Below are positions 2,864 through 51,840 of a stretch of DNA of 64,000 nt, piece after piece (the first letter of the stretch is position 1; each line of letters starts with the position of its first letter). The translations under genes were made by a program, and so were the position numbers. The notes beneath the pieces were generated by a model. That model did not search any database. It was given only the letters and a program-made list of their open reading frames with translations, and was not told where the DNA came from. The DNA comes from Armatimonadota bacterium (GTDB taxonomy: Bacteria > Bacteroidota > Ignavibacteria > OLB7), in contig JADZEY010000010.1 in NCBI GenBank assembly GCA_020850315.1, positions 1 through 64,000 on the forward strand, given 5' to 3'.

Positions 2864-3994
2864 TTACTCCAACCGCTCCGCCCCATGCTTCACCGCCAAC
2901 TGCCCGCAAGCCGCCTCGATATCTTGGCCAGAGCTTGAGCGAACCATCACTTGCGCGCCGTGGGCGCGAAGCATCGCCACAAAATTGTCGAACTGCTGGC
3001 GGGTGGTGGGGTGCAGCCGTGCCGAGATTCCGGTTGGGTTGGTGAAGCTGATGCTGTGGAACGGGATGATATTCACCTTGCTGGGAACCCGCCGGGTCAG
3101 CTTCGCAATCCGCCGGGCATCTTCCTCGGTGTCATTCAGCCCTTCGAACAAGATATACTCGAAGGTGACGGTTCGGCGGGTTTTGCGGTAGTAGTATTCT
3201 ACTGCATCCATCACCTCGGTCAAATCATGCCGCCGATTGATCGGCATCAGCTCGCTGCGCAATCCGTTGGTGGAGGCGTGCAGCGATAACGCCAGCTTGA
3301 TTTTTTGCCCCTCATCGGCCATTCGGCGAATCCCTTCCACCAAGCCGGAGGTGGAGACGGTGATGCGCGCAGCCGGCACAAGATCGTTTCCCGGATCGGC
3401 GAACAATGCTACGGCACGGAACACTGCGTCGTAGTTCAGCATCGGTTCCCCCATCCCCATAAACACGATGTTGGTGATCTTCTGCCCTGCAACATCCTGC
3501 ACCCGCAAGAACTGCTCGATAATCTCACCTGCCGCCAAATTCCGTTTCAGTTTCATGGATGCGGTGGCGCAGAACTTGCAATCCAGCGGGCATCCAACTT
3601 GGGTGGAGATGCAGATGGTGCGGCGTTTCGGCTCATCTTGGTCGTCGCGGGCTTCGCTGGGGATCAGCACCGACTCGATGTTGTAGCCATCGTGGGTGCG
3701 GAACAGGAACTTGATAGTCCCATCGGTGCTGGTTTGTTGGTCGGCAAGGGTAAGCGTTCGGAGCGTGGCGGTTTCGGCAAGGCGGCCCCGAAGCTCGTGG
3801 CTTAGGCTGGTGATCGCCATCACGCTATCCACGTGGCGGCGGTACAGCCATTCGTGCAGCTGGTTGGCGCGGTAAGTTGGCTGGCCGATTGCAGCCACAA
3901 CGGCTTCCAGCTCGGCACGGTCCATCCCAAGCAGCGATTGCCGCACGGAGCCATCGGGCGCGGTGATAGATATGGAGAAAGGAGCAGGTTTCAT
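2864..3994 (-). CDS. rlmN: 23S rRNA (adenine2503-C2)/tRNA methyltransferase RlmN
   Basis: Radical-SAM CX3CX2C motif (GCPLDCKFCATASM), FMGMGEP, TVSTSGL; start set at MKPAPFSI because the upstream ORF part overlaps a tRNA. Confidence 0.93.
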   Translation of the reverse strand: MKPAPFSISITAPDGSVRQSLLGMDRAELEAVVAAIGQPTYRANQLHEWLYRRHVDSVMAITSLSHELRGRLAETATLRTLTLADQQTSTDGTIKFLFRTHDGYNIESVLIPSEARDDQDEPKRRTICISTQVGCPLDCKFCATASMKLKRNLAAGEIIEQFLRVQDVAGQKITNIVFMGMGEPMLNYDAVFRAVALFADPGNDLVPAARITVSTSGLVEGIRRMADEGQKIKLALSLHASTNGLRSELMPINRRHDLTEVMDAVEYYYRKTRRTVTFEYILFEGLNDTEEDARRIAKLTRRVPSKVNIIPFHSISFTNPTGISARLHPTTRQQFDNFVAMLRAHGAQVMVRSSSGQDIEAACGQLAVKHGAERLE

Positions 3995-42657: not shown

Positions 42658-42727
42658 GTCAGTTGTCAGTTGTCAGTTGTCAGTTGTCAGTGGTCATTAG
42701 TCCTTTGTCCTTGGTCATTAGTCACTC
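42658..42727. repeat. heptanucleotide tandem array, 10 in-register GTCNNNN units
   Basis: (gtcagtt)4 gtcagtg gtcatta gtccttt gtccttg gtcatta gtcactc; starts 1 bp after the M48 stop codon. Confidence 0.9.
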
Positions 42728-42803
42728 ACCTTGGGCAGAGTTTGGGGAGTGAAGACTGGCTGGCTCGGTGGCTTGCTTCGATGCTCTTCTTGTCTTCGGC
42801 TTT

Positions 42804-42915
42804 GGCTCCCTCTCCCACCCGACCAATAGAGTGGAAGCAGTAGCATCACCCATTTGGGAGAGGGCGTGCCGATAGGATCGGCATCTTCGAGAGGGTGAGG
42901 GCCGGGGTGAGGGCA
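42804..42915 (+). repeat. dispersed palindromic intergenic repeat, copy 2 (with module)
   Basis: ggctccctctccc...cagtagcatc...ttgggagaggg-cgtgccgataggatcggcatcttcga-gagggtgagggc. Confidence 0.88.
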
Positions 42916-42970
42916 GGCAGCGAATGCGAGCGACTTCGACCATATCCAGCTTGGCTTTGCGTAAGGTCAG

Positions 42971-43019
42971 TGACCAGTGACCAGTGACCAGTGACCAGTG
43001 ACTAATGACCAATGACCAA
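42971..43019. repeat. heptanucleotide tandem array (TGACCAG)4 TGACTAA (TGACCAA)2
   Basis: 7 in-register heptamers; approximate inverse of the 42658 array. Confidence 0.9.
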
Positions 43020-43086
43020 CCAATGACCCTCTTTGCAACTGACCACTGACCACTGACCTTAGTCCTTGGTCATTAGCAAGAAGGTC

Positions 43087-43114
43087 TTTCACTTTTCACT
43101 CTTCACTTTTCACT
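43087..43114. repeat. heptanucleotide array (TTTCACT)2 CTTCACT TTTCACT
   Basis: 4 in-register heptamers in the pyrF upstream region. Confidence 0.8.
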
Positions 43115-45315: not shown

Positions 45316-46792
45316 CCGCGCCCGCACCCTCAGCGATCTGCGCGCAGCCAGTTCATTGCTCAATTGGGATCAAGAAACCTACATGCCCGATGGCGCAGCC
45401 GCCGTCCGTGCCGAGCAATCCGCAACGCTGGATACCCTTGCCCACCAAATGGCCACATCGGGCGAGTATGCCACGCTGCTGGATACCGTTCGGGAGGAAG
45501 CAGAGCGGGGGGAGTTGGAGGAATGGGAGCAGGGGGTGGTGAAAGAATCCTACCGTGAGTTCGAGCGTTCCCGGAAGCTGCCCGATGAGTTCGTTCGGGA
45601 GATGTCGCGGGCGCAATCGGTGGCGCACCACGCCTGGAAAAAAGGGCGCGAGCAGCAAGATTTCAGCATCTTCGCTCCGTCGTTGGAGCGGATTGTTGCG
45701 CTGAAACGCCAAGCCGCCGAATACTACGGCTACGCCGAAAACCCCTACGACGCGCTGATTGACCAGTACGAACCCGGAATGACCGCCGCCGAACTGCGCC
45801 CGGTGTTCGACCGCCTGCGGGAGGGAACCGGGGTGTTGCTGCAAAAAATTGCTGGCTTCGGCGCGCCCCCCGATGATTCCGTTCTCTTCACCGATTTCGA
45901 TGCCGAGCAGCAGCTGGCGTTCTCCAAAAGCATTATCCAGCAGCTTGGTTTCGATTTCAACATCGGTCGGGTTGATCTTTCGGCGCATCCGTTTTGCACT
46001 TCGTTCGGCAGCAGCGATGTTCGGCTAACAACCCGAATCTTCCGCAACGATCTTCGCAGCTGCCTGTTTGGATTGATGCACGAAGCTGGGCATGGGATGT
46101 ACGAGCAAGGGTTCGCGCCGCAGTTGGTTCGCACACCATTGGCGCAAGGGGCCTCGATGGGAATCCACGAGTCGCAATCGTTGCTGTGGGAAAACATGGT
46201 GGGGCGTTCGGAGGAGTTTTGGGCGTGGGCGTTCCCCCAGCTTGCTGCCGCCTTCCCGGAACAGCTTGCGGGGCTTGATTCGTTCGGTTTCTTCCGAAGC
46301 ATCAATGTGATGAAGCCAAGTTTTATCCGCGTTGAGGCCGACGAACTGACCTACAACATGCACATCATCCTCCGGTTCCAGATTGAGGATGACCTGATGA
46401 ACGGGCGGATGTGCGTTGCCGACATCCCTGCGGTGTGGAACCAAAAAAGCGAGGAATATCTGGGAATCGTTCCGCCGAACGATTCGTTGGGATGCTTGCA
46501 GGACATCCATTGGTCGTTTGGTGGGTTCGGCTACTTTGCCAGCTACACGCTGGGGAAACTGTACGCCGCAATGTTCTTCAACCGTGCGGTGGAGCAAGTT
46601 CCCGACCTGCGCGAACAGCTTGCGCGGGGTCAGTTCGGCAGCTTGCTGGGATGGCTGCGGGAAAACTTGCATCAGTGGGGCAAAGCCAAAAACGCCTCCC
46701 AGCTGGTCAACGACATCTGCGGCCGCCCGCTAACAGAAACCGATTTCCTTTCCCACCTTGAGCGGAAGATTGGGCGGGTGTATGCAGGGTGA
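45284..46792 (+). CDS. carboxypeptidase M32
   Basis: LLNWDQETYMP, GLMHEAGHGMYEQG (HEXXH), HESQSLLWENMVGRS. Confidence 0.94.
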   Translation: MPTATFTNFLDRARTLSDLRAASSLLNWDQETYMPDGAAAVRAEQSATLDTLAHQMATSGEYATLLDTVREEAERGELEEWEQGVVKESYREFERSRKLPDEFVREMSRAQSVAHHAWKKGREQQDFSIFAPSLERIVALKRQAAEYYGYAENPYDALIDQYEPGMTAAELRPVFDRLREGTGVLLQKIAGFGAPPDDSVLFTDFDAEQQLAFSKSIIQQLGFDFNIGRVDLSAHPFCTSFGSSDVRLTTRIFRNDLRSCLFGLMHEAGHGMYEQGFAPQLVRTPLAQGASMGIHESQSLLWENMVGRSEEFWAWAFPQLAAAFPEQLAGLDSFGFFRSINVMKPSFIRVEADELTYNMHIILRFQIEDDLMNGRMCVADIPAVWNQKSEEYLGIVPPNDSLGCLQDIHWSFGGFGYFASYTLGKLYAAMFFNRAVEQVPDLREQLARGQFGSLLGWLRENLHQWGKAKNASQLVNDICGRPLTETDFLSHLERKIGRVYAG

Positions 46793-46895
46793 AGGATGAA
46801 GGATGAAGGATGAAGGGTGAAGAGTGAAGAGTGAAGAGTGAAGAGTGAAGAGTGAAGGATGAAGGGTGAAGGGTGAAGGGTGAAGAGTGAAGGGG
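46791..46895. repeat. heptanucleotide array GAAG(GA/GG/AG)T, 14 units plus terminal GAAGGGG
   Basis: In-register units starting inside the M32 TGA stop codon. Confidence 0.93.
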
Positions 46896-46929
46896 GAATC
46901 TGTTTTTTCGCCTTTTCCTCTCTGGCTTT

Positions 46930-47031
46930 GGCTCCCTCTCCCAGCCGACGAACGTGAAGCAAACAGTAGTTTCATCAGTTTGGGAGAGGGCGTGCCGATA
47001 GGATCGGCATCTTCGAGGGGGGTGAGGGCAG
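46930..47031 (+). repeat. dispersed palindromic intergenic repeat, copy 3 (with module)
   Basis: ggctccctctcccagccgacgaacgtgaagcaaacagtagtttcatcagtttgggagagggc-gtgccgataggatcggcatcttcga-ggggggtgagggcag. Confidence 0.92.
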
Positions 47032-47106
47032 GTAGTTTCGGGTTCTCCCAAGATTGAGGAGAAAGAGTGAAAGAAGCAGCTGTCCTTTCGCTTCTTCCCC
47101 GGCTTT

Positions 47107-47183
47107 GGCTCCCTCTCCCAGCCGACGAACGTGAAGCAAACAGTAGTTTCATCAGTTTGGGAGAGGGCGGGGGGTGAGGGCAG
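47107..47183 (+). repeat. dispersed palindromic intergenic repeat, copy 4 (without module)
   Basis: Identical to copy 3 over its length except for clean absence of the 25-bp module. Confidence 0.92.
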
Positions 47184-49616: not shown

Positions 49617-49642
49617 AGAGTGAAGGATGAAGGGTGAAGGGT
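49615..49642. repeat. heptanucleotide array GAAGAGT GAAGGAT (GAAGGGT)2
   Basis: 4 in-register units starting inside the rsh TGA stop codon. Confidence 0.88.
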
Positions 49643-49657
49643 GAAAAAAGCCGATCC

Positions 49658-49733
49658 GGCTCCCTCTCTCGCTCGGGGAATGGAGGTGAGACAGTAGCAG
49701 CCATAATCTGGGAGAGGGTGGGGGGTGAGGGCC
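49658..49733 (+). repeat. dispersed palindromic intergenic repeat, copy 5 (without module)
   Basis: ggctccctctctcgctcggggaatggaggtgagacagtagcagccataatctgggagagggtggggggtgagggcc. Confidence 0.9.
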
Positions 49734-49777
49734 AACGCGAAGCAGGGTGAGAAGTGAAGGGTGAAAAAAGCCGATCC

Positions 49778-49877
49778 GGCTCCCTCTCCCGCTCGGGAAA
49801 TGGAGGTGAGACAGTAGCAACCGTAACCTGGGAGAGGGGGTGCCGATAGGATCGGCATCATTGAGAGGGTGAGGGCC
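49778..49877 (+). repeat. dispersed palindromic intergenic repeat, copy 6 (with module)
   Basis: ggctccctctcccgctcgggaaatggaggtgagacagtagcaaccgtaacctgggagagggg-gtgccgataggatcggcatcattga-gagggtgagggcc. Confidence 0.9.
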
Positions 49878-49910
49878 AACGCGAAGCCGCAGAACAGTAG
49901 CAATCCACAA

Positions 49911-50561
49911 ATGCGCAAAAACTACGACGACCCCATCCCGGAACCTCCCGTTGATCCCCTGGTGAGCGACCCAACGATGTTCCGAACCGAGCAGCGGCTT
50001 GCGCGGTTGCGCTCGGCAATCGAACGCCGCCAACCCACGCTTCACTTGGTGCTGGAAGATGTCCACGACCCCCACAACGTTTCGGCGGTGTTGCGCACCT
50101 GCGAATCGGTGGGCGTTGGGACTGTGCATCTGGTGTATGTGACGGAAAAATTCCCGAAGATCGGAAGGACAAGCTCGGCCAGCGCGTGGAAATGGGTGAA
50201 CATCCAGCGGTACGATTCCATCGAGGAGTGCTACGGAACGCTCCGCCAGCAGGGATGCCAAATCTACGCCACCGACCTGAGCGAGCGGGCGCGAAGCCTC
50301 TACACGATTGACCTTGCCAGCCCGGCCGCGCTGGTGTTTGGCAACGAGCATCATGGCGTGTCGCCGGAAGCCTCTCGCCTTGCCGATGGCAACCTTCTGA
50401 TCCCCATGACCGGCTTGATTCAAAGCCTGAACATCTCCGTTGCCTGCGCCGTCACCTTGTACGAAGCCTTCCGCCAGCGCCAAGTTGCCGGGATGTACGC
50501 CACCCCACAACTGCCACCAGAACTTGTTGAATCGTTGCTGAAAGAGTGGGCGGGGAGGTAG
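49911..50561 (+). CDS. TrmH/SpoU-family RNA 2'-O-methyltransferase
   Basis: VLEDVHDPHNVSAVLRTCESVGV, ALVFGNEHHGVSPEA, IPMTGLIQSLNISVACAVTLYEA. Confidence 0.92.
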   Translation: MRKNYDDPIPEPPVDPLVSDPTMFRTEQRLARLRSAIERRQPTLHLVLEDVHDPHNVSAVLRTCESVGVGTVHLVYVTEKFPKIGRTSSASAWKWVNIQRYDSIEECYGTLRQQGCQIYATDLSERARSLYTIDLASPAALVFGNEHHGVSPEASRLADGNLLIPMTGLIQSLNISVACAVTLYEAFRQRQVAGMYATPQLPPELVESLLKEWAGR

Positions 50562-50631
50562 GAAGGATGAAGGATGAAGGATGAAGGATGAAGGATGAAG
50601 GATGAAGGATGAAGGATGAAGGATGAAGGAT
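50562..50631. repeat. heptanucleotide array (GAAGGAT)10, perfect
   Basis: Begins at the base immediately after the trmH-like stop codon (50559-50561). Confidence 0.95.
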
Positions 50632-50653
50632 GAAAAGGGGAAGAGATGGTTCG

Positions 50654-51007
50654 TTATTGTAGATTGTTTTTGGCTTTCTTCGAGATTGTGGTGAAGATTG
50701 CAATCAGCTGATTGCATTCCTCTTGCAGGGAAGCCACTCTCGGTTCGGGAATAATTCCAGATTCGGTAAGCAATTCAAGCCAGTATGCTGTTTCGTCAAG
50801 CTCTTTTAAGCAGTCGCCAATTTTAGCAATAAACTCAGCCCTTGAACGGGACCGACGTGCTTCGCGATAATTGGCTCCTACTGAAGTCGCAGAGCGCAGC
50901 AACTGTTTGCCCAGCACTTGGGCTTCCATCGTTTTGGGGCTTGCCGCAACCACCCTAACAACACACAATGCAAAGCCCTTCGTTCGCTCTGCTAAATCGT
51001 GATTCAT
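50654..51007 (-). CDS. four-helix-bundle protein (S23/IVS-type)
   Basis: MNHDLAERTKGFALCVVRVVAASPKTMEAQVLGKQLLRSATSVGANYREARRSRSRAEFIAKIGDCLKELDETAYWLELL; family pattern (GKQLLRSATSVGANYREA). Confidence 0.88.
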   Translation of the reverse strand: MNHDLAERTKGFALCVVRVVAASPKTMEAQVLGKQLLRSATSVGANYREARRSRSRAEFIAKIGDCLKELDETAYWLELLTESGIIPEPRVASLQEECNQLIAIFTTISKKAKNNLQ

Positions 51008-51009
51008 AG

Positions 51010-51065
51010 AAAGTATGAAGTATGAAGTATGAAGTATGAAGTATGAAGTATGAATGATGAAGTGT
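51010..51065. repeat. heptanucleotide array (GAAGTAT)5 with flanking degenerate units
   Basis: Immediately upstream of the four-helix-bundle start codon; ends GAATGAT GAAGTGT. Confidence 0.92.
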
Positions 51066-51099
51066 GAAAAGGAGAAGAGAGATGGTTCGTTATCGTAGG

Positions 51100-51150
51100 T
51101 TATTCTTGGCTTTTGGCGTTCTTCGAAATCGTGGTAAAGATTGCAATCAA
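51100..51150 (-). pseudogene. 3' remnant of a second four-helix-bundle gene
   Basis: Minus strand encodes LIAIFTTISKNAKSQE*, matching the intact gene's C-terminus LIAIFTTISKKAKNNLQ*; shared downstream flank tggttcgttat. Confidence 0.85.
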
Positions 51151-51171
51151 CCAAAGTATGAAGAGTGAGGG

Positions 51172-51210
51172 CTGATCCTTTTTCATACTTCATCATTCAT
51201 ACTTCATCCT
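51172..51210. repeat. degenerate heptanucleotide array (minus strand AAAGGAT GAAGTAT GAATGAT GAAGTAT)
   Basis: Abuts the stop codon (51211-51213) of the minus-strand ABC gene. Confidence 0.8.
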
Positions 51211-51840
51211 TTACTCCAATCCCAACCTGAGCGAACACATCGTCAAATCGTCGGCATCGTTGGTGGCGATGATGGTGATTCGGTGCGGTGCGCCATCTGC
51301 AATCATCTGGCGCATGGCTTGGATACCTTGCTCGTCAAGGTTGGTGGCTGGTTCGTCAAGAATTAGAAAGGGCGGGGAGTGAACCAACGCGCAGATGAAT
51401 TTTACCCGCTGAAGCATCCCGCTGCTGAACGTGCGAAGCAACTCATGCTCCCTTCCTAACAATCCAAACTGCTGGAATAATTCCTTTCCTTTCTGCGGCT
51501 CCATCGGAAGCCCGCGCAGTTTCTGCACCATCTCCACATGCTCCCACGCGGTGAACTCAGTATAAAGTTGAAGGTATGGGGCAACAAACCCCAAGTGTTG
51601 TGGCAGTCCTTCATCCGGCAGCGCGGTTCCCTGAAGCCTCCATTCCACGCTCCCCTCGGTTCGTTCGGCAACGTTGGCCAGCACCTTCACCAGCGTTGAT
51701 TTTCCCGACCCATTGCTTCCCGTGATTGCCAGCGCATCCCCCGCGCCAAGCTGAAAAGTGATGTTTGAAAAGATCGTCCGCAACCCAAATCGCTTGGTGA
51801 TTCTGGCAACGTTCAGTTCGGGCGATACGGTTACGCTCAT
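51211..51840 (-). CDS. ABC transporter ATP-binding protein (CcmA-like)
   Basis: Walker A GSNGSGKST, signature FSSGMLQRV, Walker B LILDEPATNLD. Confidence 0.9.
   Translation of the reverse strand: MSVTVSPELNVARITKRFGLRTIFSNITFQLGAGDALAITGSNGSGKSTLVKVLANVAERTEGSVEWRLQGTALPDEGLPQHLGFVAPYLQLYTEFTAWEHVEMVQKLRGLPMEPQKGKELFQQFGLLGREHELLRTFSSGMLQRVKFICALVHSPPFLILDEPATNLDEQGIQAMRQMIADGAPHRITIIATNDADDLTMCSLRLGLE

Follow-up and report, generated by a model that had tools for sequence, protein, structure and literature searches.

An S23-family gene between inverted heptamer arrays as a likely copy of a widespread small mobile element

The locus considered here raises the question of why a small gene of the S23 type, a family originally recognised in insertions of rRNA genes, found in a 64,000-nucleotide stretch of bacterial DNA (hereafter, the window), should be bracketed by arrays of a seven-base repeat at the junction of two convergent genes, trmH and an ABC ATPase gene. 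A first-pass annotation had read the gene and its arrays as a candidate duplicating or mobile unit which inserts at stop codons, and the present analysis follows this proposal from the anatomy of the locus to its counterparts in other genomes.

Anatomy of the locus and its protein

The features that had been described at this locus are real and lie where they had been placed, as confirmed by the sequence itself, TRF, Pfam, and alignment. They are given below with the neighbouring genes and two further arrays of the window.

42658–43114, no strand assigned: upstream of pyrF, S23-less arrays of GTCAGTT (the genome's other type) and of its inverse, together with one of TTTCACT (TRF)
46786–46898, plus strand: S23-less GGATGAA/GGGTGAA-type array, upstream of the relA/spoT gene (TRF)
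49869–50561, plus strand: trmH-like SpoU methylase, left neighbour, outside the element (PF00588, E=1.2e-35)
50562–50634, minus strand: right (3', TTC-type) arm in the S23 sense, an expanded (ATCCTTC)10.4 (TRF, 10.4 copies, 100% matches)
50635–50653, minus strand: short flank from the S23 stop to the arm, repeated in the second copy (two-copy alignment)
50654–51007, minus strand: intact S23/IVP four-helix-bundle gene, 117 aa (PF05635, TIGR02436, 2RLD, AlphaFold, Foldseek)
51011–51068, minus strand: heptamer arm of copy A, TTC-type in the S23 sense (TTCATAC; TRF, 8.3 copies, 90% matches)
51065–51149 (approximate), minus strand: truncated S23 copy A, with flank, last codons, and stop (alignment, 68/85 identical columns, E=3e-19)
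51182–51209, minus strand: left (5', GAA-type) arm in the S23 sense, exactly four heptamers (GGATGAA, GTATGAA, TGATGAA, GTATGAA)
51211–51840, minus strand: CcmA-like ABC ATPase, right neighbour, outside the element (PF00005, E=6.6e-24)

The (GAAGGAT)10.4 array has its outer end at 50562, directly after the TAG stop of trmH (50559–50561), and the outer end of the left arm abuts the stop codon of the ABC gene (51211–51213). Read in the S23 sense, the order is the ABC stop, the GAA arm (51209–51182), some 30 bp, the truncated S23 3' end, the TTCATAC-type array (51068–51011), the intact gene (51007–50654), (TTCATCC)10 (50634–50562), and the trmH stop. The middle array, (AAGTATG)8.3, has GAAGTAT in its first units and variants in its last ones, and separates the truncated copy from the intact gene. 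What the first-pass annotation did not record is that the last array (TTCATACTTCATCATTCATACTTCATCC, four heptamers) is inverted relative to the first; given this mutual inversion, the outer ends form a terminal inverted repeat of the kind expected of classical insertion sequences and MITEs, and the outermost arms (50562–50634 with 51182–51209) can pair in a duplex of −44 kcal/mol. The longest lag-7 run of the window covers 66 bases, against at most 11 in 20 shuffles and 8–14 at the other periods from 4 to 13.

The second copy of the S23 3' end and flank, which in alignment with the intact copy is internally deleted and carries a 7-bp insertion, had been taken to mean that the unit is present twice. 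The duplicate is indeed there, but it is better described as one element with a tandem duplication of S23 plus arm and an internal deletion than as two insertions. In the simplest history, a single [GAA arm - S23 - TTC arm] element would have inserted between trmH and the ABC gene, the segment made up of S23 and the right arm would then have been duplicated in tandem, and one S23 copy would have been mostly deleted, losing its front part, while the right arms expanded. The 180-aa open reading frame proposed by the ORF finder is probably an artefact, in which the 117-aa S23 gene is extended through the array.

A second dispersed repeat family, made up of GGCTCCCTCTCCC ... GGGAGAGGG palindromes with several copies per intergenic region, was also seen in the window (42790–42900, 46925–47180, and 49640–49880), with two near-identical tandem copies between relA/spoT and trmH.

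The assignment of the gene to the S23 type is borne out by scores above the curated cut-offs of both Pfam 23S_rRNA_IVP (PF05635; E=3.6e-20, 72.6 bits vs 33.8) and TIGR02436 (E=2.1e-26, 92.3 bits vs 24), by a match to 2RLD (E=1.4e-18), and by the fold, given that the AlphaFold model (pLDDT 94.5) has the four helices of the family's bundle. The closest structures found by Foldseek are 2RLD (TM 0.84/0.91) and 2GSC, followed by 4DWL, the Avd protein of a diversity-generating retroelement (DGR; prob 1.00, TM 0.80/0.84), and Avd within the DGR ribonucleoprotein was matched as well. The protein is thus like the TIGR02436/PF05635 family in sequence and fold, while the annotation of that family names no ends, arrays, or mobility.

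The element holds no transposase, nuclease, or polymerase, which counts against its mobility. The Y1/HUH transposase profile (PF01797) has no match in the element or elsewhere in the genome (a draft of 138 contigs), and the reverse transcriptase profile RVT_1 (PF00078) has none in the same draft, by which a reverse transcriptase or HUH transposase of the genome's own was rejected as the mover. Given this, S23 would either work with host enzymes or have an activity that is not yet recognised.

Heptamer arms around S23 genes

The sample consisted of the 80 closest S23 relatives in GTDB genomes, at about 59–75% identity, together with some 90 S23 loci from relatives within the class and a set of plasmid loci. 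The first group (L063–L142) was chosen by similarity to the protein of the window and spans 11 phyla, mostly Verrucomicrobiota, with Thermodesulfobacteriota, Chloroflexota, Planctomycetota, Nitrospirota, Spirochaetota, Acidobacteriota, Pseudomonadota, and others, while L033–L062 and L163–L220 sample S23 more broadly, within one class only.

Self-match scores at each lag were computed on the 300-bp flanks. Around the 171 S23 loci, which come from 11 phyla or more, arrays of period 7 occur in the 300 bp on either side of the gene and are absent 1 kb away, with mean scores of 13–15.5 at lag 7 (lag 14 being raised as its multiple) against approximately 4–6 at other lags, and a fall to 4–5 at lag 7 at 1 kb from the gene. 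The expectation that arrays would be commoner beside S23 than elsewhere was confirmed, given that 104 of the 204 S23-adjacent intergenic regions reached the array threshold, in comparison with 17 of the 114 other intergenic regions from the same loci (Fisher p=8e-11). At a threshold of 8, arrays were found on both sides of 89 of the 171 genes and on one side of 48, and the 34 genes with no clear array count against a general rule. Of the elements with two arms, 62 have them inverted and 6 direct, with a median arm length of 4.4 heptamers (IQR 4.0–5.1) and a median element span of 486 bp (IQR 447–539). The nine plasmid S23 loci also have heptamers, mostly inverted, with one weak case.

At some S23 genes of the class relatives, lags 8 and 9 were slightly raised (in up to 0.08 and 0.05 of flanks, respectively), and a few elements may use units of eight or nine bases. 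In genus g12 (L232, L234, L239, and L313), a tRNA-Gln gene next to the prs-linked S23 has inverted heptamers of its own on either side.

The sequence of the heptamer varies with the S23 lineage. In the clade of the window's gene, the upstream arm follows NNNNGAA (GGATGAA, TTATGAA, GTATGAA, TGCAGAA, GGCTGAA, and others) and the downstream arm is its reverse complement, while other clades have GTCAGTT, GTGCTGA, ACGAGTA, and further types. Mapped onto the tree of the close clade, heptamer types show 12 changes, in comparison with 25.8 for shuffled labels (minimum 22). Arms of the same type match far better than arms of other types (p=1e-59), and the match is closer still between the two arms of a single element (p=5e-5 in comparison with arms of the same type from other elements). 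A mirrored, element-specific order of variants within arm pairs, which a few solo pairs had suggested and which would imply that one arm is copied from the other, was rejected, because order-shuffled arms matched equally well in 77 elements, and the arms of solo pairs matched each other no better than those of other pairs. The order of units is thus not specific to the element, and the arms do not reproduce one another exactly, a point against the mobile-element reading.

This genome (G000) has two PF05635 genes by profile search. The second, on contig 51, sits between the genes of the two transketolase subunits and, as could not be gathered from the first-pass annotation, which had asked whether other S23 genes have arrays, it is bounded by inverted heptamers of the GTCAGTT type (GTCAGTTGTCAATTGTCAGTGGTCAGTTGCA ... 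TGCAACTGACTACTGACCAATGACTACTGAC). The genome was sampled by pattern search, with the GGATGAA and GTCAGTT types searched genome-wide; the former gave 221 matches (13 for the reversed control) and the latter 320 (2 for the reversed control), so that, for the two patterns searched, the dispersed arrays are of the types of the genome's own two S23 genes.

Arrays of GGATGAA are abundant in only 3 of 61 genomes, with 120 matches in G000, 69 in G031, and 27 in G040, all of which carry this S23 type, and G001, of the same genus as G000 and without this S23 type, has a single match. Two of the five genomes with this S23 type (G013 and G049) hold few GGATGAA arrays, which counts against a strict correspondence, and their arms are other NNNNGAA variants. 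The solo arm pairs of G031 and G040 enclose short spacers that are unrelated in sequence. As a correction to the first proposal, arrays also occur without S23.

Copies, occupancy, and placement

Similar S23 genes were found at unrelated sites, with the DNA homology confined to the segment from arm to arm and with different neighbours, which is the general mark of a mobile element. For example, L116 and L093, in one Opitutales genome, are 93.6% identical from −72 to +28, and the homology likewise ends at the arms in L113/L114, L118/L123/L141, L067/L077, and L071/L090. The proposal of a duplicating or mobile unit gains its support from these copies, two of them in one genome, and it is by comparison that we infer the movement itself. 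The dN/dS of S23 between copies at unrelated sites is mostly 0.03–0.08 (0.40 for the very recent pair L116/L093), and such low values indicate that the S23 protein has been selected across moves.

The occupancy of individual sites also varies between relatives. Convergent trmH/ABC synteny was found in G001, G002, and G004, and the junction, which it had been proposed to compare among relatives, is occupied in different ways: G000 carries the element, G001 an inverted GTCAGTT pair that lacks S23, and G004 a clean gap of 59 bp. Both conditions named at the outset as refuting the first proposal were thus checked, and neither refuted it. The arrays at 42658–43114 of the window face a site without them in G001. 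Arm pairs are present at nuoA and gcvH/tpiA in one species of a genus and missing in another. The transketolase element is present in G000, G001, and G002 and missing from G003 and G004; its S23 is a long resident, inherited vertically in three species, and S23 genes of this sort count against the mobile-element reading. At der, S23 with arms is seen in G040, in comparison with arms alone in G031, and at prs an intact gene in G031 and G013 corresponds to a pseudogene in G049 and to no more than the 3' end of the gene in G040; S23 thus seems to be lost more readily than the arms. Among these sites, none combined a clean empty state with a target duplication, the orthologous sites being too diverged for base-exact junctions, and the element ends are defined only to within a few bases; both points weigh against the mobile-element reading.

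Elements of different heptamer types occupy the same slot in two species (L090 and L093), namely the 3' end of a gene that by eye looks AlbA_2/AAA_4-like, and this suggests repeated insertion at one junction. Carriage by phages was considered and set aside, given that a scan of IMG/VR found no relative; two distant matches lie in unannotated faecal phage contigs.

Where both neighbours share one strand, S23 is in the sense orientation in 80 cases and antisense in 6, while other adjacent ORF pairs of the same loci are same-strand by 133 to 65. Measured from the stop of an upstream ORF on the same strand, the start of the upstream array has a median position of −2 nt (39 of 71 lie between −15 and +10), and many upstream ORFs run into the array and end at its TGA, acquiring tails such as ...MKDEG or ...NYEL. 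This placement agrees with insertion, or the survival of insertions, at gene ends in operons. Insertion at stop codons, as first proposed, thus holds as a pattern, and both a choice of target and the survival of harmless insertions fit it.

A mobile-element reading and its alternatives

The nearest known system is the intervening sequence (IVS) of rRNA genes. In Coxiella burnetii, the IVS is a 428-nt element of the 23S rRNA which contains an S23p ORF and has ends that form a 28-bp stem. Next to the ORF lie three tandem GACAGAT heptamers with a degenerate fourth, and the number of heptamers varies between strains; a transposon origin was suggested and left open (PMC4990558). S23p is not in the Coxiella ribosome structure (PMC13392368), and IVP ORFs also occur in rRNA insertions of CPR bacteria (PMC11270868). 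The element described here shares with these the S23/IVP ORF, the complementary ends that can form a stem, the tandem heptamers, and the sporadic distribution, and differs in lying at junctions of protein genes (here, between trmH and the ABC gene) rather than inside a 23S or 16S rRNA gene, and in its heptamer types. Excision by RNase III is known only for the rRNA form, and the Coxiella study treats the heptamers as a local variable repeat, not as a rule for S23 genes (PMC4990558).

Dispersed intergenic arrays of period 7 are likewise known from other bacteria, such as GGGAATC in Xanthomonas, often in convergent inverted pairs, and GGGGATT in Nostoc (PMC4692102), or TAACTGA in Beggiatoaceae, cyanobacteria, and Bacteroidetes (PMC4679880); neither paper was found to connect these arrays with S23 or with mobile elements. 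Xcc does encode an S23 (Xcc0516, the protein of 2GSC), and no Xanthomonas was among the results of a plasmid search. REP/RAYT systems (PMC2817692, PMC3733652) resemble the element in having one small gene between short repeats in inverted orientation, with further copies of the repeat dispersed on their own, while S23 lacks the Y1/HUH transposase domain that defines them.

The locus is likely to be a single copy of a mobile element, widespread and some 0.45–0.55 kb long, in which an S23/IVP gene lies within terminal inverted repeats of about four heptamers each, and which would be the free-living form of the IVS. This reading draws on the comparison of sequences, which establishes the association of arrays with S23, their inversion, the matching of types, copies of limited homology, polymorphic occupancy, a series of decay, and sense placement. 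Given that the heptamer type corresponds to the S23 clade, we infer that the arms, whether as DNA or as RNA, are recognised by the S23 pentamer, which makes S23 the probable arm-recognition factor. By reading the arms, the pentamer would bring about or guide the copying of the element, and S23-less arm pairs would be non-autonomous or dead derivatives. Insertions would survive mainly at places where the arm offers an end to the upstream ORF and where the element forms part of the operon transcript; there the arms could fold together as a stem, possibly open to cleavage by RNase III as happens in rRNA, so that RNA processing would extend to mRNAs.

It may instead be the heptamer arrays that are mobile or self-expanding, through slippage, recombination, or an unrelated enzyme, with S23 as a passenger occasionally captured between inverted arrays. 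We consider this unlikely, even though S23-less arrays and pairs outnumber S23 elements in G031, G040, and G000, the spacers of solo pairs have no evident common sequence, and arms outlast the loss of S23 at prs and stand without it at der. The capture of S23 would be needed repeatedly, while neighbouring intergenic regions hold arrays approximately three times less often, and a passenger would account poorly for a heptamer type that tracks the S23 clade across phyla, for genomes rich in one array type that carry the matching S23 type, and for the purifying selection on S23 between copies. That selection, when taken with the 80 to 6 excess of sense placement, the persistent residence at transketolase, and the presence of S23 in defence operons of several plasmids and Verrucomicrobia loci, would also suit an ordinary host or defence-operon gene (R-M, DISARM, or CRISPR), spread by ordinary operon transfer, with arms that serve as regulatory or RNA-processing stems. 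This second alternative appears distinctly improbable, given that the homology between copies ends at the arms with different neighbours, that trmH, transketolase, murB/ftsQ, der, and prs have no functional theme in common, and that S23 is lost or pseudogenised at prs where the arms remain.

The resemblance of the fold to DGR Avd, on its own and in the ribonucleoprotein, and of PF05635 to Avd (PMC10053308), together with sense placement in transcripts, raises a further scenario, in which S23 would be an Avd-like cofactor of a reverse transcriptase that acts in trans and copies the element as a retroelement. We hold this to be very improbable, since a match to RVT_1, the enzyme by which DGRs are defined, is missing from this genome and from 47 of 60 relatives, most of which have S23.

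On the mobile-element reading, a wider proposition can be put forward, which we regard as evenly balanced. As the same layout surrounds S23 genes in many phyla, S23 genes and 7-base repeats look like the halves of one family, and the S23/IVP genes found throughout bacteria may be the coding part of a single unrecognised superfamily of approximately 0.5 kb, with ends made of heptamer arrays that S23 reads, while rRNA IVSs and many dispersed heptamer repeats (the STRR-like repeats of cyanobacteria, Xanthomonas, and others) may be its rRNA-resident and gene-less forms. In the open-licence literature, no paper was found that links S23 genes outside rRNA with heptamer arms, and an earlier description may exist. 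Structures of S23/IVP proteins have been solved since 2006 without a function, rRNA IVSs have no known origin, and the bacterial heptamer repeats have no explanation; these three puzzles would be joined by a testable rule, i.e., that each S23 clade has its own heptamer. If this is true, there would be a class of mobile elements without a recognisable transposase, living in transcribed regions, which gives neighbouring proteins short terminal tails and accounts for some of the "simple repeat" sequence that many genomes contain.

Some further contexts were observed. At L221, L222, L223, L224, and L226, S23 lies within defence operons (DISARM drmD/PglX-like, helicase/N6-methylase, csx2/cas1, and DUF1156/Swt1), on the sense strand and with tight spacing, and "23S rRNA IVP" is listed in a figure on CRISPR-linked proteins (PMC10910872). 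Within the coding sequence of an apparent signal peptide (FPFILHPSSLILHS), one heptamer arm was seen both at L245 and at the corresponding locus of G040, L293, which indicates that arms can become protein sequence. Finally, the elements of L129, L136, and L142 (S23 at about 3003–3360, 3003–3345, and 1187–1544, respectively) lie inside hsdM, the frame of which stays open across them, and solo heptamer pairs also occur in frame within hsdM, where they resemble the Rickettsia palindromic elements. Intron-like behaviour was considered for these three loci and rejected, given that, judging from the HsdM motifs, differing segments of hsdM are presumably missing between the junctions, and these elements therefore look like in-frame replacements or fusions rather than removable introns.
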